Source: Thiocapsa marina 5811
Lineage (GTDB): Bacteria; Pseudomonadota; Gammaproteobacteria; Chromatiales; Chromatiaceae
Length of the DNA: 64,000 bases
Direction of reading: 5' to 3'
Assembly (NCBI RefSeq): GCF_000223985.1
Contig: NZ_AFWV01000008.1
Coordinates: 1-64,000 of the forward strand
The notes beneath the pieces are model-generated. The model ran no database searches, was not told the DNA's origin, and saw only the letters and a list, made by a program, of their open reading frames with translations. Shown piece by piece: positions 31,088 through 38,074 of the stretch. How positions within the stretch are numbered: the stretch's first letter is position 1; the number at the start of each line of letters is the position of its first letter. The position numbers and the translations under genes were made by a program.

Positions 31088-31172
31088 CAAACCGCGCCGA
31101 CACCAACGGACTTCAAGGCTGCCGGCGCAGATCCCATCCAAAAACATCGCATACCGCGCTGGGCGCGGTTTA
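31088..31172. repeat. AAACCGCG-type element, copy B (85 bp)
   Basis: It begins CAAACCGCGCC and ends GGCGCGGTTTA. It stands 23 bases from copy A; its right end supplies the TAA stop (complement of 31170-31172) of the DNA ligase gene. A CGCATACCG segment near its right end recurs in copy G at about 52.1 kb. Confidence 0.85.
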
Positions 31173-32090
31173 GAGGGTTTCGACCCTCCGCAGGAAGCTC
31201 GCGAACCGGGGCAGGCCGTTTGCCGTGCGCCCGTGATACTTGAAGTTGACGACGCTGCCCACGGGCGGCGGGTCATCGCGCTCGACATCGCTGAAGCCGG
31301 TGCCGAGCCTAAATCGGGTTCCGTCCGCCTCCTCGACCACAAGCGACCCCAACCGTCCTTCGTGTCGCCCGCGGCCGGGGACATGGGCGATCACCCTGGC
31401 GTCGGCTTCCAGGTAGGGTTTGACCTTGAGGAAATCGGCGGAACGTCCGACGCGGTAGAGCGAATCCCGCCGATGCAGCATCAAACCCTCCCCGCCCGCG
31501 GCGACCACTCGGTCCAACGCGGCCATCAAGGCGTCATGATCCGCAACGCGGGTTTGCTCGACCAGATCGAGAAAGGGGCTCGGCGAGGTCGCGAGAAGAC
31601 CTCTCAATACGCTCAGGCGTGTCTCGAAATCGCCCGGGTGGTCCGGCAGGTCGAACACCATATAGCGGACACGACGCCAGGCGTCGTCATCCGGCTCGGA
31701 TCGTCGTACGGTGCCCGACAGGAGGGCAAAGGTGCCGCGGCCCATCCAAAGCTCTCCGTCGAGTGCAACCGCGGGAAAATCGGCCGTAAACCAGGTGGGC
31801 GCCCTGATCGGCATGCCGCCGCGCGTCATGAAACGGCGGCCGTTCCAGTAGCCGCGCACGCCGTCGAGCTTCTCGCTGACCAAGTAACGGTCGAGATCGA
31901 CGCCGGGACGATAGACCTCTCCCAGTGCCAGCCCGGGCACCGGCGTTGTCGACGACTCGCTCGCAACGGCGAGCGAGGTCGAGGACACATCCCCCGGGAT
32001 CGCCCCCTCGGTCGTTGCGCCGGCATGACCGCGCTGCATGGCGAGAAGAAGCAGCAAGAGAGCGAAGCGAAGACTGGACAAGTGCGACAT
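31170..32090 (-). CDS. exported ATP-dependent DNA ligase (LigE-type)
   Basis: This 306-residue minimal ATP-dependent ligase joins DNA nicks. The adenylated lysine is in the motif SEKLDGVRGYW, followed by ligase motifs LDGELWMGRG, VFDLPD, GGEGLMLHR and FLKVKPY, and a short OB domain. An N-terminal signal peptide (residues 1-24, SLRFALLLLLLAMQRGHAG) sends it to the periplasm, as known for bacterial Lig E proteins. It may act on DNA taken up by type IV pili, whose genes lie in this window; that link is inference. Its TAA stop lies inside repeat copy B. Confidence 0.92.
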   Translation of the reverse strand: MSHLSSLRFALLLLLLAMQRGHAGATTEGAIPGDVSSTSLAVASESSTTPVPGLALGEVYRPGVDLDRYLVSEKLDGVRGYWNGRRFMTRGGMPIRAPTWFTADFPAVALDGELWMGRGTFALLSGTVRRSEPDDDAWRRVRYMVFDLPDHPGDFETRLSVLRGLLATSPSPFLDLVEQTRVADHDALMAALDRVVAAGGEGLMLHRRDSLYRVGRSADFLKVKPYLEADARVIAHVPGRGRHEGRLGSLVVEEADGTRFRLGTGFSDVERDDPPPVGSVVNFKYHGRTANGLPRFASFLRRVETL

Positions 32091-32442
32091 CGAACACTTT
32101 TCGTTTATTCTGCGATGACGACACTCTACCTCACGTAAGGAACGACACCAAATCCATTCACACGATATGGCTCCGACTCCGTCATGGAAGCAACACGGCT
32201 TCTTGCGTGCCGACCGCTCCCCAAGGCTCTAAGCCACGACGTTCTGAATCGTCATCCGCAGGAGCCTTCCCAAAACCCGATTGTTTTACTCAATACATTA
32301 AATCCGTCCCGCGGCATTCTTTCCTGTGCCGACATGGGCTAACGTGACGATATTGTTGCGCTGCACAAAAATCGTCCCGACGACCTCGGGATGTTTGACC
32401 CGAGCGCTCGGCTGCACGGCCGCCTGTCAGGACCAAAAAACC
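32091..32442. other. intergenic region between divergent genes
   Basis: About 350 bases lie between the ligase and mqo-like starts. The part from 32280 to 32360 is moderately AT-rich and probably carries the mqo promoter. I see no gene, hairpin with T-run or copy of the AAACCGCG element. Confidence 0.4.
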
Positions 32443-33876
32443 ATGACTGCTTCGACACACTACGACGTTCTCATCGTCGGGGCCGGTGTCACCGGTACCG
32501 CACTCCTCTATCAGCTGGCGAAATTCACCGACCTGAACCGCCTCTGTCTGGTCGAAAAATACGACAGCATCGCCACGGTCAACTCGCACGCTCACAACAA
32601 CAGTCAGACCATTCACTGCGGCGACATCGAGACCAACTACACGCTGGAAAAGGCACGCGCCATAAAGCGCACGGCCTACATGATCATCAACTATACGACC
32701 AAGCTCGCACCGCGCGATCGCGACCGCATCATCCACCGGATGCCGAAGATGGTGCTGGGCGTGGGAGAGAGCGAATGTCGCTACATCCGTGATCGCTACG
32801 AACGCTTCAAGGGGCTTTACCCGCGCATGGAACTGCTCGAGCGCAAGGACATCGCGGAAATCGAGCCCAACGTCGCCCTCGTGGACGGCGCCTGGCGAAA
32901 GGAAGAGATCGTCGCCACCGGCACGCCCGATGATTATTGTGCCGTCGACTTTCAGGCCCTGGCGCAGTCCTTCTCGGCCGATTGCGTGCGCCTGGACCGA
33001 CAGACATCCAAGCAGATCACCCAGTTATTCTCGACCAAGGTCGACAAGATCCGCCGTGACGGCCAGGATTACGTCTTGGAGACCAACCGGGGCCTATTGA
33101 AGGCACGGGCCCTTGTGGTGTGTGCGGGCGGGCACTCGCTCTTGATGGCGCAGGAAATGGGGCTGGGACTGGACTACTCCTGCATGCCCGTCGCCGGATC
33201 CTTCTATTTCGCCCCGGAGGCGCTGAACGGCAAGGTCTACACGGTTCAGAACCCGAGCCTGCCGTTCGCCGCGGTCCACGGCGACCACGACATCAAGGAA
33301 CGCGGTAAGACCCGTTTCGGGCCGACCGCCTTCATGCTGCCGATGCTCGAGCGCTACAACCGCGATAGCATCCCCGAGTTCTTCAAGGTCTTGAGATTCG
33401 ATCGACGGGTTGCCGCGGCCTTTTGGGCCATGCTCAAAGAGCGCGATATCCGCCACTACATCCTGCGCAACCTCCTCTACGAGGTTCCGGGCCTGAATCG
33501 CCACTTCTTCGTACGCGAGATCCGCAAGATCGTGCCCTCGATCCAGGCGGCCGACATCAGCTATGCCGAACGCTTCGGCGGGCTGCGGCCCCAGTTGATC
33601 GACAAGGCATCCGGCAAGCTGCGCATGGGCGAGGCCAAGATCACCAACGACGCAGGTCTCATCTTCAACATGACTCCCTCGCCCGGCGGCACCAGTTGTC
33701 TGGGCAGCGGCGAGACCGACATGCGCTCGATTGCCGCCTATTTGGGCGCGCGAATCGACGAGCAGGCCTTGTCGCGGGAGCTGCTGATGGGATACGAGGA
33801 CACGCGCGAGCAGGGTGACGCGATCGAGGCGGCGGAGACGGATTCCGAAGCCGTGACGCTAGCCGAGGCGGTCTGA
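32443..33876 (+). CDS. mqo: FAD-dependent malate:quinone oxidoreductase-like enzyme
   Basis: This 477-residue flavoprotein has an N-terminal Rossmann dinucleotide motif DVLIVGAGVTGTALLYQL, a conserved NNSQTIHCGDIETNY stretch and a C-terminal MTPSPGGTSCLGSGETD that closes the FAD site. It resembles the malate:quinone oxidoreductases, which oxidise malate to oxaloacetate and pass electrons to quinone at the membrane. The family also contains related 2-hydroxyacid dehydrogenases, so the substrate is not certain. Together with mdh and gltA further right it would serve the citric acid cycle. The ATG at 32443 begins directly before the Rossmann strand; the longer frame upstream is unlike the family. 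Confidence 0.78.
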   Translation: MTASTHYDVLIVGAGVTGTALLYQLAKFTDLNRLCLVEKYDSIATVNSHAHNNSQTIHCGDIETNYTLEKARAIKRTAYMIINYTTKLAPRDRDRIIHRMPKMVLGVGESECRYIRDRYERFKGLYPRMELLERKDIAEIEPNVALVDGAWRKEEIVATGTPDDYCAVDFQALAQSFSADCVRLDRQTSKQITQLFSTKVDKIRRDGQDYVLETNRGLLKARALVVCAGGHSLLMAQEMGLGLDYSCMPVAGSFYFAPEALNGKVYTVQNPSLPFAAVHGDHDIKERGKTRFGPTAFMLPMLERYNRDSIPEFFKVLRFDRRVAAAFWAMLKERDIRHYILRNLLYEVPGLNRHFFVREIRKIVPSIQAADISYAERFGGLRPQLIDKASGKLRMGEAKITNDAGLIFNMTPSPGGTSCLGSGETDMRSIAAYLGARIDEQALSRELLMGYEDTREQGDAIEAAETDSEAVTLAEAV

Positions 33877-34178: not shown

Positions 34179-34262
34179 TAAACCGCTTCACCGCCAAGGT
34201 CATGGGCTCACGCAACCGCAAGCCCAATCCCAAAGATCCTTTATCGCACCGGACGCGGTTTA
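34179..34262. repeat. AAACCGCG-type element, copy E (84 bp)
   Basis: It begins TAAACCGCTTC and ends GGACGCGGTTTA. The right end supplies the TAA stop (complement of 34260-34262) of hemE. The interior is unlike the other copies. Confidence 0.8.
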
Positions 34263-35324
34263 GCCGTGGTAGGGGCGACTGAGCTCATGCACCGCCGCGA
34301 CCATCGCCCCGGCATGCTCCGGATTGACGTCTGGCGTGATCCCGTGTCCGAGATTGAAGACATGGCCCGGACCCTTGCCGTAGCTGGCGAGCACGCGCGC
34401 GACCTCTTCGCGGATCCGCTCGGGTGAGGCGTAGAGCGCACAGGGATCGAGATTGCCCTGAAGCGAGACCCGATCGCCGGTCAGGATGCGCGCATCGGCC
34501 AGATCCGTCGTCCAGTCCACGCCGAGTCCGTCGCAGCCGGTATCGGCCATGTGTTTCAGCCACTGACCGCCGTTCTTGGTGAAGAGGATCACCGGGACGG
34601 CTCGTCCCTCCGCCTCGCGATTCAGACCCTCGACCACGCGCTGCATGTAGGCCAGGGAGAACTCGCGATAGTTCGCCGGCGCCAGCGCACCGCCCCAGGT
34701 ATCGAAGATCATGGTCGCTTGCGCACCGCGGGCGATCTGGGCGTTCAGGTAGGCAATTACGGCGTCCGCGGTCTTCGCCAACAAGGCGTGGAGCAAATCC
34801 GGGCGGTCGAACATCATCCCCTTCACATGCGAGAAGTTCTTCGCACCGCCGCCCTCGACCATGTAGGTCGCGAGTGTCCAAGGGCTGCCGGAGAAGCCGA
34901 TCAAAGGCACGCGCCCGGCGAGCTCGCGTCGAATCGTCGACACGGCATCCATCACGTAGCGCAGCTCGTCCTCGGGATCCGGCACGGCGATCCGATCCAC
35001 GTCGGCCTGCGTGCGTACCGGGCGCTCGAAATGCGGCCCCTCACCCTCTGCGAAATACAGACCCAGACCCATCGCGTCCGGCACCGTCAGGATGTCCGAG
35101 AAAAGGATGGCGGCATCCAACGGAAAACGCTCCAACGGCTGAAGCGTGACCTCGCAGGCCAGCTCCGGGTTCTTGCACAGGTCCATGAAGCTGCCGGCCT
35201 TCGCGCGCGTCGCACGGTACTCGGGCAGATAGCGGCCTGCTTGGCGCATCATCCAAACCGGTGTGTATTCAACGGGTTCGCGCATCACTGCACGGAGGAA
35301 GGTGTCATTGATGAGTGGCGTCAT
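34260..35324 (-). CDS. hemE: uroporphyrinogen decarboxylase
   Basis: This 354-residue cytoplasmic enzyme of haem and bacteriochlorophyll synthesis removes four carboxyl groups from uroporphyrinogen III. Signatures are the N-terminal [18 protein letters not shown], the [12 protein letters not shown] stretch with the catalytic aspartate, [17 protein letters not shown] and the closing [15 protein letters not shown]. The ATG at 35324 gives the normal N-terminus [12 protein letters not shown]; the frame continues upstream to 35528 without similarity. It is divergent from uvrD across an AT-rich gap, and its stop codon is inside repeat copy E. Confidence 0.97.
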
Positions 35325-35899
35325 GAAGCAGGACCTGGGCAGTCGAGGAAGAAGGGTCTCGGTGGTTCGGGCGCCCATTCTACATACGGGTTTTGCTCCT
35401 GACGAGGTTGCGAAGGGTGCAGGCGCCGAAGTTCGCCGTTCCGGTGCGGGCGCCAAGTCGCACGCAGGCCGAACAGCGACGGCTCGGCGGGGGAACCAGG
35501 GATCGGATAACTGTATAAGTCTGTTCACGACTGGGTCTAGAAGTCTGTGGATAAGGTGTGTTCATCTTGACGACCTCTTTTTGCACACCGGTTATGCACA
35601 GGTTGAGCGACCACCGGGAAACAGCCTGAAATTCACGCAAGGGATTGACCTTGATTATTTTTTCGACACGGATGAGTTATCCACAACGCTTATTAAGATT
35701 ACTGTTTTTTTATTTAAGCTGTTTTGAATAAAGAAGCGGCCGAGGAACGGGGCGATGCTGCCCGCATAGCCCCGACAGTCACCCAACAGACTGAAATAAA
35801 AAGTTTTTAGGCCCCATCCCTGCGTCCGGCCACGCCTCGCTCGGAGCCAATCGACAACAACACATGTCATGCCGGAGCTGGTTTAGTAGAATCCAGGCG
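35325..35899. other. AT-rich intergenic region with DnaA-box-like nonamers (oriC candidate)
   Basis: The gap between divergent hemE and uvrD is the most AT-rich stretch in the window. It holds TTATCCACA (35677-35685), its reverse complement TGTGGATAA (35546-35554) and the variant TTATGCACA (35592-35600). Poly-T-rich blocks follow directly at 35653-35666 and 35690-35733, the latter including TTTTTTTATTT, reminiscent of the 13-mer unwinding elements beside box R1 of the E. coli origin. No gene is seen. It could be an origin, or simply the promoter region of uvrD with DnaA regulation. Confidence 0.5.
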
Positions 35900-38074
35900 A
35901 TGGATGTCTCCGCCCTTCTCGATTCACTCAACGACGCTCAGCGCGCGGCCGTTGCCGCCGAGTCCGGTCATCTTCTAGTGCTCGCGGGTGCCGGGTCCGG
36001 CAAGACGCGCGTTCTGGTCCATCGCATCGCTTGGTTGGTCCAGGTGCAGCAGGTGCCGTCCTATGCGGTGCTCGCGGTCACCTTCACGAACAAGGCAGCG
36101 CGCGAGATGCGCGGTCGCATCGAGACCATGCTCGGCGTGCCGATCGGCGGGATGTGGGTCGGGACCTTTCATGGCCTCGCCCATCGTTTTCTGCGTGCGC
36201 ACTGGCAGGACGCGCAGCTCCCGCAGCATTTCCAGATCCTGGATTCGGACGATCAGTCCCGCCTGATCAAGCGGATCATGAAGGCGATGGAGCTCGACGA
36301 GGCGCGTTGGCCGCCCCGTCAGGTGCAGGGTTTCATCAACAAGCAGAAGGACGAGGGGCTGAGGCCGAACCACCTCGACGGCGGCGGCGATTTCTTTACC
36401 GACAAGATGATCGCGGTCTACCGCCAGTACGAGGAGGAGCGCGCACGCTCGGGCCTGCTCGACTTTGCCGATCTGCTGCTCAAGACGCTGGAGCTGCTGC
36501 GCGAGCGTCCGGATATCCTGCAGCATTACCAGCGACGCTTCGCCCATATCCTGGTCGACGAGTTCCAGGATACGAACGCCATCCAGTACGCTTGGCTACG
36601 ACTCTTGGCCGGGACGAACGACAACCTCTTCGCCGTCGGCGACGACGATCAGTCGATCTACGGCTGGCGCGGCGCCAAGGTCGAAAATATTCAATCCTTT
36701 CAGCGCGATTATCCCGGCACGCAGGTCATCCGGCTGGAGCAGAATTACCGTTCGAGCGGCAACATCCTGGCCGCAGCCAACGCACTGATCGCACACAATC
36801 CAAGCCGTCTGGGGAAAAACCTCTGGACCCGAGACGGCGAGGGCGAGCCGATTCGCCGCTACACGGCCTTCAACGAGGTCGACGAGGCGCGATTCGTGGT
36901 GGAGAGAATCCGCCGCTTCACGCAGAACGAAGGGCATCGGCGCGACGAGTGCGCCATCCTCTATCGCACCACGGCCCAATCACGCCTGTTCGAAGAGGCG
37001 CTGATCCAGGCGCAGATCCCCTATCGGGTGTACGGCGGACTGCGGTTCTTCGAGCGCGCCGAGATCCGCGATGCGCTCGCCTATCTGCGCTTGGTCGCCA
37101 ACCCGGACGACGATGCCGCCTTCGAGCGCGTGGTCAATACTCCGAACCGTGGCATCGGCGCACGCACCCTGGATCTGTTGCGCCGGCAGGCGCGCGAGAC
37201 GCGGGTCTCGCTCTGGCAGGCGGCAGCCGATCTGACCGGGACATCCGTATTGGGTCCGAGGGGTGGCGCCGCACTGCTTGGATTCGTGGATCTGATTCGC
37301 GACCAGCGCCGAGCACGGGACGGATTGGCTTTGCATGAGCTGGTCACCGCACTCGTCGAGGCGGCCGGCTTGCCGGATTTCTACAAGAAGAACAAGGACG
37401 GCAAGGGCCAGGATCGGGTGGAGAACCTCGAGCAGCTGGTCGACACGGCCGCGCGCTTCGAGGAGGACCTGCACGAGGAAGAGACCGACGCGCTGGCGGT
37501 CTTTCTCGCGCATGCCGCGCTGGAAGCAGGCGACACCCAAGCCGACGGGTTCGAGGACAGTGTGCAGCTCATGACCCTGCACAGCGCCAAGGGTTTGGAG
37601 TTTCCGGTCGTCTTCTTGGTCGGGCTCGAAGAGGGGCTGTTCCCGCACAGTCTTTCGGCGGAGGATCCGAGCCGGCTCGAAGAGGAGCGCCGACTCTGCT
37701 ATGTCGGTATGACGCGCGCGATGCGCGAGCTTTACGTGACCCACGCCGAGAGCCGGCGGCTCTACGGCCGCGAAGAGTCGCCGATGCCCTCGCGATTCCT
37801 GCGCGAGGTTCCACCCGGATTGGTCGAAGAGGTCAGAGCCCGCAGCGCGGTTCGCCGCACGACCTCCGGTCCGAGTCCGAGCCTGGCGTCGATGTCGAGC
37901 GGTGATGCCGGTCTCTTCAGGCTCGGGCAGCGTGTGGTTCACCCGAAGTTCGGCGAGGGCGTGGTCCTGAACAGCGAGGGCCGCGGATCCGCGGCTCGGA
38001 TTCAGGTCAATTTTCAGAAGGCCGGGGCCAAGTGGTTGGTTCTGGCTTATGCTCGGCTCGAGCCGGCAGGTTGA
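35900..38074 (+). CDS. uvrD: DNA helicase II
   Basis: This 724-residue superfamily 1 3'-5' helicase acts in nucleotide-excision and mismatch repair. It follows E. coli UvrD along its whole length: MDVSALLDSLNDAQRAAV start, Walker A LAGAGSGKTR, VTFTNKAAREM, DEFQDTN, GDDDQSIYGWRGA, LEQNYRS, LHSAKGLEFP and the C-terminal KFGEGVV Tudor-like segment that binds RNA polymerase. The start at 35900 gives this canonical N-terminus. No clear LexA box was found upstream. It is followed after 85 bases by repeat copy F. Confidence 0.97.
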   Translation: MDVSALLDSLNDAQRAAVAAESGHLLVLAGAGSGKTRVLVHRIAWLVQVQQVPSYAVLAVTFTNKAAREMRGRIETMLGVPIGGMWVGTFHGLAHRFLRAHWQDAQLPQHFQILDSDDQSRLIKRIMKAMELDEARWPPRQVQGFINKQKDEGLRPNHLDGGGDFFTDKMIAVYRQYEEERARSGLLDFADLLLKTLELLRERPDILQHYQRRFAHILVDEFQDTNAIQYAWLRLLAGTNDNLFAVGDDDQSIYGWRGAKVENIQSFQRDYPGTQVIRLEQNYRSSGNILAAANALIAHNPSRLGKNLWTRDGEGEPIRRYTAFNEVDEARFVVERIRRFTQNEGHRRDECAILYRTTAQSRLFEEALIQAQIPYRVYGGLRFFERAEIRDALAYLRLVANPDDDAAFERVVNTPNRGIGARTLDLLRRQARETRVSLWQAAADLTGTSVLGPRGGAALLGFVDLIRDQRRARDGLALHELVTALVEAAGLPDFYKKNKDGKGQDRVENLEQLVDTAARFEEDLHEEETDALAVFLAHAALEAGDTQADGFEDSVQLMTLHSAKGLEFPVVFLVGLEEGLFPHSLSAEDPSRLEEERRLCYVGMTRAMRELYVTHAESRRLYGREESPMPSRFLREVPPGLVEEVRARSAVRRTTSGPSPSLASMSSGDAGLFRLGQRVVHPKFGEGVVLNSEGRGSAARIQVNFQKAGAKWLVLAYARLEPAG

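Follow-up and report, generated by a model that had tools for sequence, protein, structure and literature searches.

A putative chromosomal replication origin between hemE and uvrD in Thiocapsa marina 5811, probably a relocated copy of a dnaA-dnaN origin

The intergenic region between hemE and uvrD of Thiocapsa marina 5811 (575 bp, 35325..35899, the gap between the two gene calls, no strand assigned) carries a putative oriC. Comparison of sequences indicates that this is probably the main origin of the chromosome and a relocated copy of the origin at dnaA-dnaN, a reading to which we assign a probability of about 0.78. Positions refer to the window, the whole stretch of 64,000 nucleotides analyzed, which corresponds to C55:1-64000 in a genome of 5.59 Mb in 62 contigs; some scans covered 284 kb, the first part of the 307,854-bp contig C55. 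An earlier note on this DNA had proposed a candidate origin at this place, and its proposal is supported by the box cluster, the extreme AT block, an inverted box pair kept throughout the genus and the dif and GC skew data for the region.

Only three matches to TTATNCACA are present in the window, all of them inside the hemE-uvrD gap and spanning 140 bp, where chance would give a mean of 0.22 in the window and none of 100 dinucleotide shuffles reached three; the DnaA-box cluster reported in the earlier note is thus real. Box 1 (TTATCCACA, 35546..35554, minus strand) has 8 of 9 columns invariant in an alignment of eight genomes. Box 2 (TTATGCACA, 35592..35600, plus strand) lies 46 bp from box 1, has 7 of 9 columns invariant in those genomes, and reads TTATGCACA, TTACGCACA or TTACCCACA among the seven close genus mates. 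Box 3 (TTATCCACA, 35677..35685, plus strand) follows 85 bp from box 2 and, taken together with GAG, shows 11/12 invariant columns in the same alignment. A weak box with one mismatch (TTTTGCACA, 35579..35587, plus strand) was found by the box search between boxes 1 and 2; it is present at equal offset in G001, G002, G003, G004 and G008 and as TTCTGCACA in G010, with no match for it in G007. Upstream of box 1 there is a conserved block, ACTGTATAAGTCTGTTCACG (35510..35529, no strand assigned), with 17 of 20 columns invariant in the eight genomes; less conserved parts of the gap are those between boxes 2 and 3 (24/74 invariant columns) and towards uvrD (43/121). When up to one mismatch to TTATCCACA was allowed, the hemE-uvrD gap again had the highest box density per 500 bp in the 284 kb, with three boxes versus two at dnaA. 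The gap therefore holds a DnaA-box cluster in non-coding DNA, as looked for in an oriC. A plasmid search using 35461-35860 as query gave no match.

An AT-rich element, also looked for in an oriC, adjoins these boxes. Its unwinding role is putative: the segment 35686..35736 (plus strand), delimited by AT content and conservation, contains partial DnaA-trio-like repeats (CTTATTAAGATTACTG...), and 34 of 49 columns are invariant in the eight genomes at 35686-35734. The most AT-rich 60 bp (75%) of both the window and the 284 kb fall within 35672-35736, bearing out the T-rich blocks pointed out in the earlier note, and the gap ranks first in the 284 kb scanned for AT content at 60, 100 and 150 bp. 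DnaA-trios were taken as defined for the basal unwinding system in the accessible part of PMC8287927; the likeness to the system outlined there consists of a box, a 4-bp spacer and AAT/AAT repeats read 3'-5'. Under a strict rule (three or more.A. trios no further than 16 bp from a DnaA box) the hemE-uvrD copy of T. marina has four trios at spacer 13, whereas most uvrD-type copies depart from the system described in that part of the source, their third repeat being broken (TCT). At box 3, 5/14 uvrD-type elements pass the rule versus 3/3 of the dnaA-dnaN elements tested. Background boxes in the 284 kb pass as well (4/19 with one mismatch, 31/304 with two); since 10-20% of them do so, the rule separates the two sites little, and we rejected it as a discriminator which, if anything, favours dnaA-dnaN.

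The flanking genes diverge from the gap, as had been described before. On the left hemE, encoding uroporphyrinogen decarboxylase (34260..35324, minus strand), scores 444 bits against TIGR01464 (cut-off 303), and on the right uvrD, encoding DNA helicase II (35900..38074, plus strand), scores 1148 bits against NF008743 (cut-off 965), both thus over NCBIfam cut-offs; the score of uvrD against TIGR01075, also a uvrD model, is 1080 bits, slightly below the cut-off of 1144. The hemE start, ATG at 35324, was picked by inspection in an ORF open from 35528, and for uvrD the second ATG was picked in an ORF open from 35864. Two other genes near the putative origin were looked at: 31170-32090 (minus strand) encodes a PRK09125 (NF006592) family DNA ligase, above cut-off, and 32326-33876 (plus strand) a flavin-dependent oxidoreductase with weak similarity to L-2-hydroxyglutarate oxidase and to malate:quinone oxidoreductase, scoring far under the cut-offs of all 15 families listed.

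The earlier note had also drawn on a plus-strand bias of the genes to the right. Counting only long ORFs (at least 200 aa), this held roughly within the window, where the interval from +4.4 to +24.4 kb has 14.4 kb on the plus strand and 3.0 kb on the minus strand, but it was reversed from +24.4 to +44.4 kb, mostly past the window (4.5 kb plus, 14.1 kb minus). The share of long ORFs on the leading strand within 100 kb of hemE-uvrD and of dnaA-dnaN was 0.52/0.45, 0.57/0.49, 0.50/0.41 and 0.50/0.43 in four genomes, higher for hemE-uvrD in all four, with low values for both sites. As the strand bias reverses and the leading-strand fraction is only 0.52 within 100 kb, gene direction is weak evidence for an origin.

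Within the genus, the inverted box pair spaced 46 bp is found upstream of uvrD in 11/11 members, and the third box lies 83-85 bp beyond the pair in 10/11, being degenerate in G006. The 661-bp stretch 35300-35960 shows 78-87% identity over its whole or nearly whole length in seven genus mates and matches at its ends only in G005, G006 and G009. Two of the latter, G009 and G005, have diverged in sequence yet keep three TTATNCACA boxes at spacings of 46/84 and 46/83, respectively. The third, G006, has two tandem modules about 380 bp apart upstream of uvrD (L039:1687-2306), both containing the 46-bp pair and a third box that is degenerate (two mismatches). All three keep an AT-rich block starting with CTTAT or CTTAC after box 3. 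In G005 the match to the start of hemE is on a separate contig, the module staying with uvrD.

The gene dnaA, noted before as missing from the window, maps to the minus strand of the same contig (C55:100658-101980), 65 kb rightward of the hemE-uvrD cluster. The gap between dnaA and dnaN (C55:100457-100648) carries a second oriC-like module with weaker boxes in nearly the same register: counted from dnaA towards dnaN, CTATCCACA, TTATACACA and TCATGCACA lie at offsets 2, 48 and 134, giving spacings of 46 and 86 as compared to 46 and 85 at hemE-uvrD. All three deviate from the TTATCCACA consensus, and an AT block just before dnaN reaches 0.68 AT in its best 60 bp versus 0.75 at hemE-uvrD. The likeness of the two modules rests on register, not on overall sequence identity, and the shared register suggests that they are related copies. 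Searching for three boxes with up to one mismatch to TTATNCACA within 150 bp returned only these two clusters in the 284 kb. In G004, G010 and G001 the same search returned only each genome's hemE-uvrD and dnaA-dnaN sites; there it covered part of each genome, 120 stretches of 20 kb (2.4 Mb) that included both site neighbourhoods by design. A denser cluster near dnaA had been named in the earlier note as a finding that would speak against its reading: a second cluster does exist at dnaA-dnaN, but it is not denser, and has weaker boxes and a less extreme AT content.

The dnaA-dnaN element is kept in 9/11 genus members including T. marina 5811. Spacings in the other members are 46 and 85 in six and 46 and 84 in G005; in G008 boxes 2 and 3 are spaced 85 and box 1 is beyond one mismatch. 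The element is lost in G006 and G009, where the dnaA-dnaN gap sequences that we read (28 bp and 143 bp, respectively) contain no boxes. Mean pairwise identity among eight genomes is 0.784 for dnaA-dnaN and 0.796 for hemE-uvrD, the latter being higher in 17/28 pairs, values too close for conservation to serve as a discriminator between the sites. Being about as conserved as the hemE-uvrD copy, the dnaA-dnaN copy is not simply rotting; it probably still does something, and may bind DnaA in a regulatory role or serve as a backup site of initiation.

Across the family, which includes Marichromatium- and Halochromatium-like genomes, we searched 116 genomes drawn evenly from the larger group for an inverted pair with 30-46 bases between the boxes. 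This free-spacing pair occurs at 51 distinct places in 44 of the 116 genomes, and at 48 of the 51 the start-to-start spacing is 45 or 46. Thirty loci were cut out and analyzed by tblastn: 24 lie beside dnaA and/or dnaN, three between hemE and uvrD (T. marina 5811, G002 and G073) and three at neither place (L193, L212 and L215). One of these last, L212:1501-1700 (G055:C10:108374), is a third module-like copy, which lies about 6 kb away from the dnaA of G055 and resembles the dnaA-dnaN copy (CACAGCCCTTATTACTAC...).

A narrower set of 32 near genomes, made of the genus members and of those genomes in which the UvrD start most resembles that of T. marina, was searched for the pair at a spacing of exactly 46 with no more than two mismatches, so that a miss means no pair at this stringency and not absence. 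The pair was found somewhere in 29/32. It lies just upstream of uvrD in 20/32, including 9/21 outside the genus; by genus the counts are 11/11 in g1, 3/3 in g38, 3/3 in g42 (each counted at 46 bp with two mismatches), 1/1 in g46, 1/1 in g34, 1/2 in g64 and 0/11 in the rest. At dnaA-dnaN it is found in 19/32, and 13/32 have it at both sites. Seven have the pair only at uvrD (G006, G009, G043, G047, G051, G098 and G126), six only at dnaA-dnaN (G110, G104, G129, G083, G059 and G130) and six at neither site (G057, G096, G121, G116, G014 and G127), a 45-bp pair adjoining dnaA in G014 and G127. The pair is thus located mostly at dnaA-dnaN in outgroups and also, or only, at uvrD in the clade of T. 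marina, and the architecture of the hemE-uvrD module is kept in relatives, as looked for in an oriC.

Besides gammaproteobacterial MAGs, the best UvrD matches were Marichromatium gracile, at 71%, and a Halochromatium MAG, at 70%, in line with a relative of the purple sulfur bacteria. M. gracile (L108), which is g42-like, has boxes in its hemE-uvrD gap with a strong inverted box 58 bp from box 2, and 55 bases matched in G126 are present in it letter for letter. In Halochromatium sp. A10 (L111) and MAG GSL.Bin27 (L107) hemE and uvrD are adjacent, with no box cluster in the gap. The two genes are likewise adjacent in G014, G104 and G130, without the pair in that gap. Gap length was tried as a mark of insertion and rejected: measured as match-to-match distance, it is 170 bp in G014 and 257 bp in G104, but G057, G110 and G130, which also lack the 46-bp pair there, have 488-524 bp. 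Second perfect inverted box pairs were observed at G104:C22:67888, G130:C88:5947 and G014:C64:21400 (two further genera); mnmG was considered as their neighbour and discarded, given that dnaA, uvrD, hemE and mnmG are all on other contigs.

At the chromosome scale, a dif-like site was found once each in G001, G004, G010, G013 and T. marina 5811, while the search returned none in G008. As a share of the chromosome, hemE-uvrD lies 45.1% away from dif in G004, 45.6% in G001 and 51.4% in G010, which fits either site and hence does not discriminate. GC skew in G004, from 40 samples of 20 kb, is positive in 17/18 on one arm and negative in 16/21 on the other, the fortieth sample falling between the two sites; the cumulative skew reaches its minimum in the 2.82-Mb sample and stays close to that value up to 3.1 Mb, dnaA and hemE-uvrD being located at 2.816 and 2.884 Mb, respectively. 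In G010, excluding 20 local stretches, 9/10 and 8/10 samples agree by arm. G004 and G010 therefore show a switch of strand asymmetry in this region roughly opposite dif, and G001 the dif position only. At fine scale the skew is noisy, with shallow minima near both sites in G004, a dip near dnaA in G010, a fall across both sites in G001 and nothing clear locally in G001 or in the contig of T. marina. Local skew around both sites, calculated for four genomes as cumulative skew and as strand-specific GC3 skew, was rejected as too weak to separate sites 65 kb apart. The GC skew check put forward in the earlier note thus supports the region in closed genus mates, but does not single out hemE-uvrD over dnaA-dnaN.

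Other arrangements of DnaA boxes were observed during these searches. A same-strand box pair 187-190 bp apart occurs in at least four genomes (G000:C52:137489/137677, G004:C1:340937/341124, G010:C1:3804390/3804579 and G008:C1:1665432/1665622). It is remote from the origin in the last three of these and on another contig in T. marina (G000), and is perhaps a conserved DnaA regulatory site. Among the matches listed, the family member G013 has three inverted pairs with 5 bp between the boxes (C1:2993725, 3315481 and 3489360); in two cases a further box is present some 190 bp upstream of the pair.

We propose that DnaA would bind the inverted pair of boxes 1 and 2 plus box 3. By analogy with DnaA-dependent origins, a DnaA filament starting from box 3 may open the AT block at 35686-35736 and let the helicase load, and the inverted pair may assist the filament nucleated at box 3. 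Regarding its history, an ancestral dnaA-dnaN origin having the same inverted pair would have been copied, in the ancestor of a clade within the family, into the gap between hemE and uvrD, which were neighbours before that event; the new copy would then have taken over, and the old one would have been weakened or lost. Copying from dnaA-dnaN to hemE-uvrD is the simplest direction in view of the location of the pair in outgroups, the prior adjacency of hemE and uvrD, and the shared order and nearly identical register of the boxes; copying the other way, followed by many losses, is a possible alternative. Against the reading as a whole stand G110, with its pair only at dnaA-dnaN, the two mismatches of the g42 pairs at uvrD and the 58-bp distance in M. 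gracile, and the six of 32 near genomes without the 46-bp pair at either site.

The two copies raise the question of which one is used. The true origin could still be dnaA-dnaN, with hemE-uvrD as a duplicate for titration of DnaA or for control of uvrD and hemE by DnaA. We consider this unlikely, even if outgroups carry the pair mostly at dnaA-dnaN, the T. marina copy there has its three boxes in register plus three trios beside the third, conservation is similar at both sites and the skew is compatible with dnaA-dnaN. The off-consensus boxes and weaker AT block of that copy argue against it, as does its loss from G006 and G009, which keep the uvrD copy; furthermore, no 46-bp pair with up to two mismatches is found at dnaA-dnaN in G043, G047, G051, G098 and G126. 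Titration sites are not known to require an adjoining extreme AT block, such as the one that adjoins the hemE-uvrD boxes.

Alternatively both modules might fire, as two functional origins 65 kb apart or as a main one and a backup. This overlaps with our preferred reading, which claims hemE-uvrD only as the main origin, and it is suggested by modules that are complete in outline and conserved together in 9/11 genus members, with the pair at both places in 13/32 near genomes. Gao 2015 (PMC4403523) reported no evidence at that time of two functional origins on one bacterial chromosome; moreover, some relatives lack the dnaA-dnaN copy and the skew displays no resolvable double minimum, so we find it doubtful that both are in use. 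It is similarly improbable that T. marina uses two related and complete oriC modules, being caught in the middle of a relocation which other members of the clade completed by deletion of the old copy. Finally, the boxes could be chance matches or ordinary promoter boxes, the region being placed between divergent genes and a single TTATCCACA being also present upstream of dnaA (C55:102140); nevertheless, the density, register and AT block of the hemE-uvrD module are above chance and recur across genera, making this explanation very improbable.

With hemE-uvrD taken as the probable main origin, its closest likeness is to the dnaA-dnaN modules of its own family, which have the inverted pair at 45-46 bp and, in g1 and G110, box 3 after another 84-86 bp, followed by an AT block. 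The hemE-uvrD module differs from the dnaA-dnaN copy of T. marina in lying between hemE and uvrD, 65 kb from dnaA, and in having stronger boxes and AT block. The nearest published parallel found is in Gao 2015, where Ralstonia pickettii and Ochrobactrum anthropi are given putative, unproven double origins, one by dnaA and the other by hemE. Those cases likewise involve two predicted oriCs on one chromosome with three boxes each; the two are 291 and 882 kb apart in other organisms, as against 65 kb and a shared register here. According to the accessible part of PMC1914354, the oriC of Caulobacter and Rickettsia lies between hemE and COG1806 and alphaproteobacterial origins lie by hemE. The present module shares the hemE flank, DnaA boxes and AT-rich part with the type described there, but its second flank is uvrD and not COG1806. 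Because hemE and uvrD are adjacent without the pair in G014, G104 and G130, the hemE neighbourhood looks convergent with the Caulobacter type. Origins of the E. coli type, placed between gidA (mnmG) and mioC in the accessible part of PMC10225481, are similarly detached from dnaA; in T. marina mnmG is at C55:110142, about 75 kb from the hemE-uvrD site and not flanking it, and of the several GATC sites and the IHF site looked for in this type, 35401-35900 contains one GATC and no WATCAANNNNTTR. A search by title and abstract found no paper on oriC in Chromatiaceae, most subscription journals and DoriC being outside its scope.

Movement of origins along chromosomes has mostly been inferred from end states, E. 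coli being an example. Here one family displays stages of relocation together: genomes with the old site only, with both, with the new one only, and one with a tandem copy. Duplication followed by takeover thus becomes directly testable, and these are natural chromosomes in which to ask if two copies of oriC both fire.
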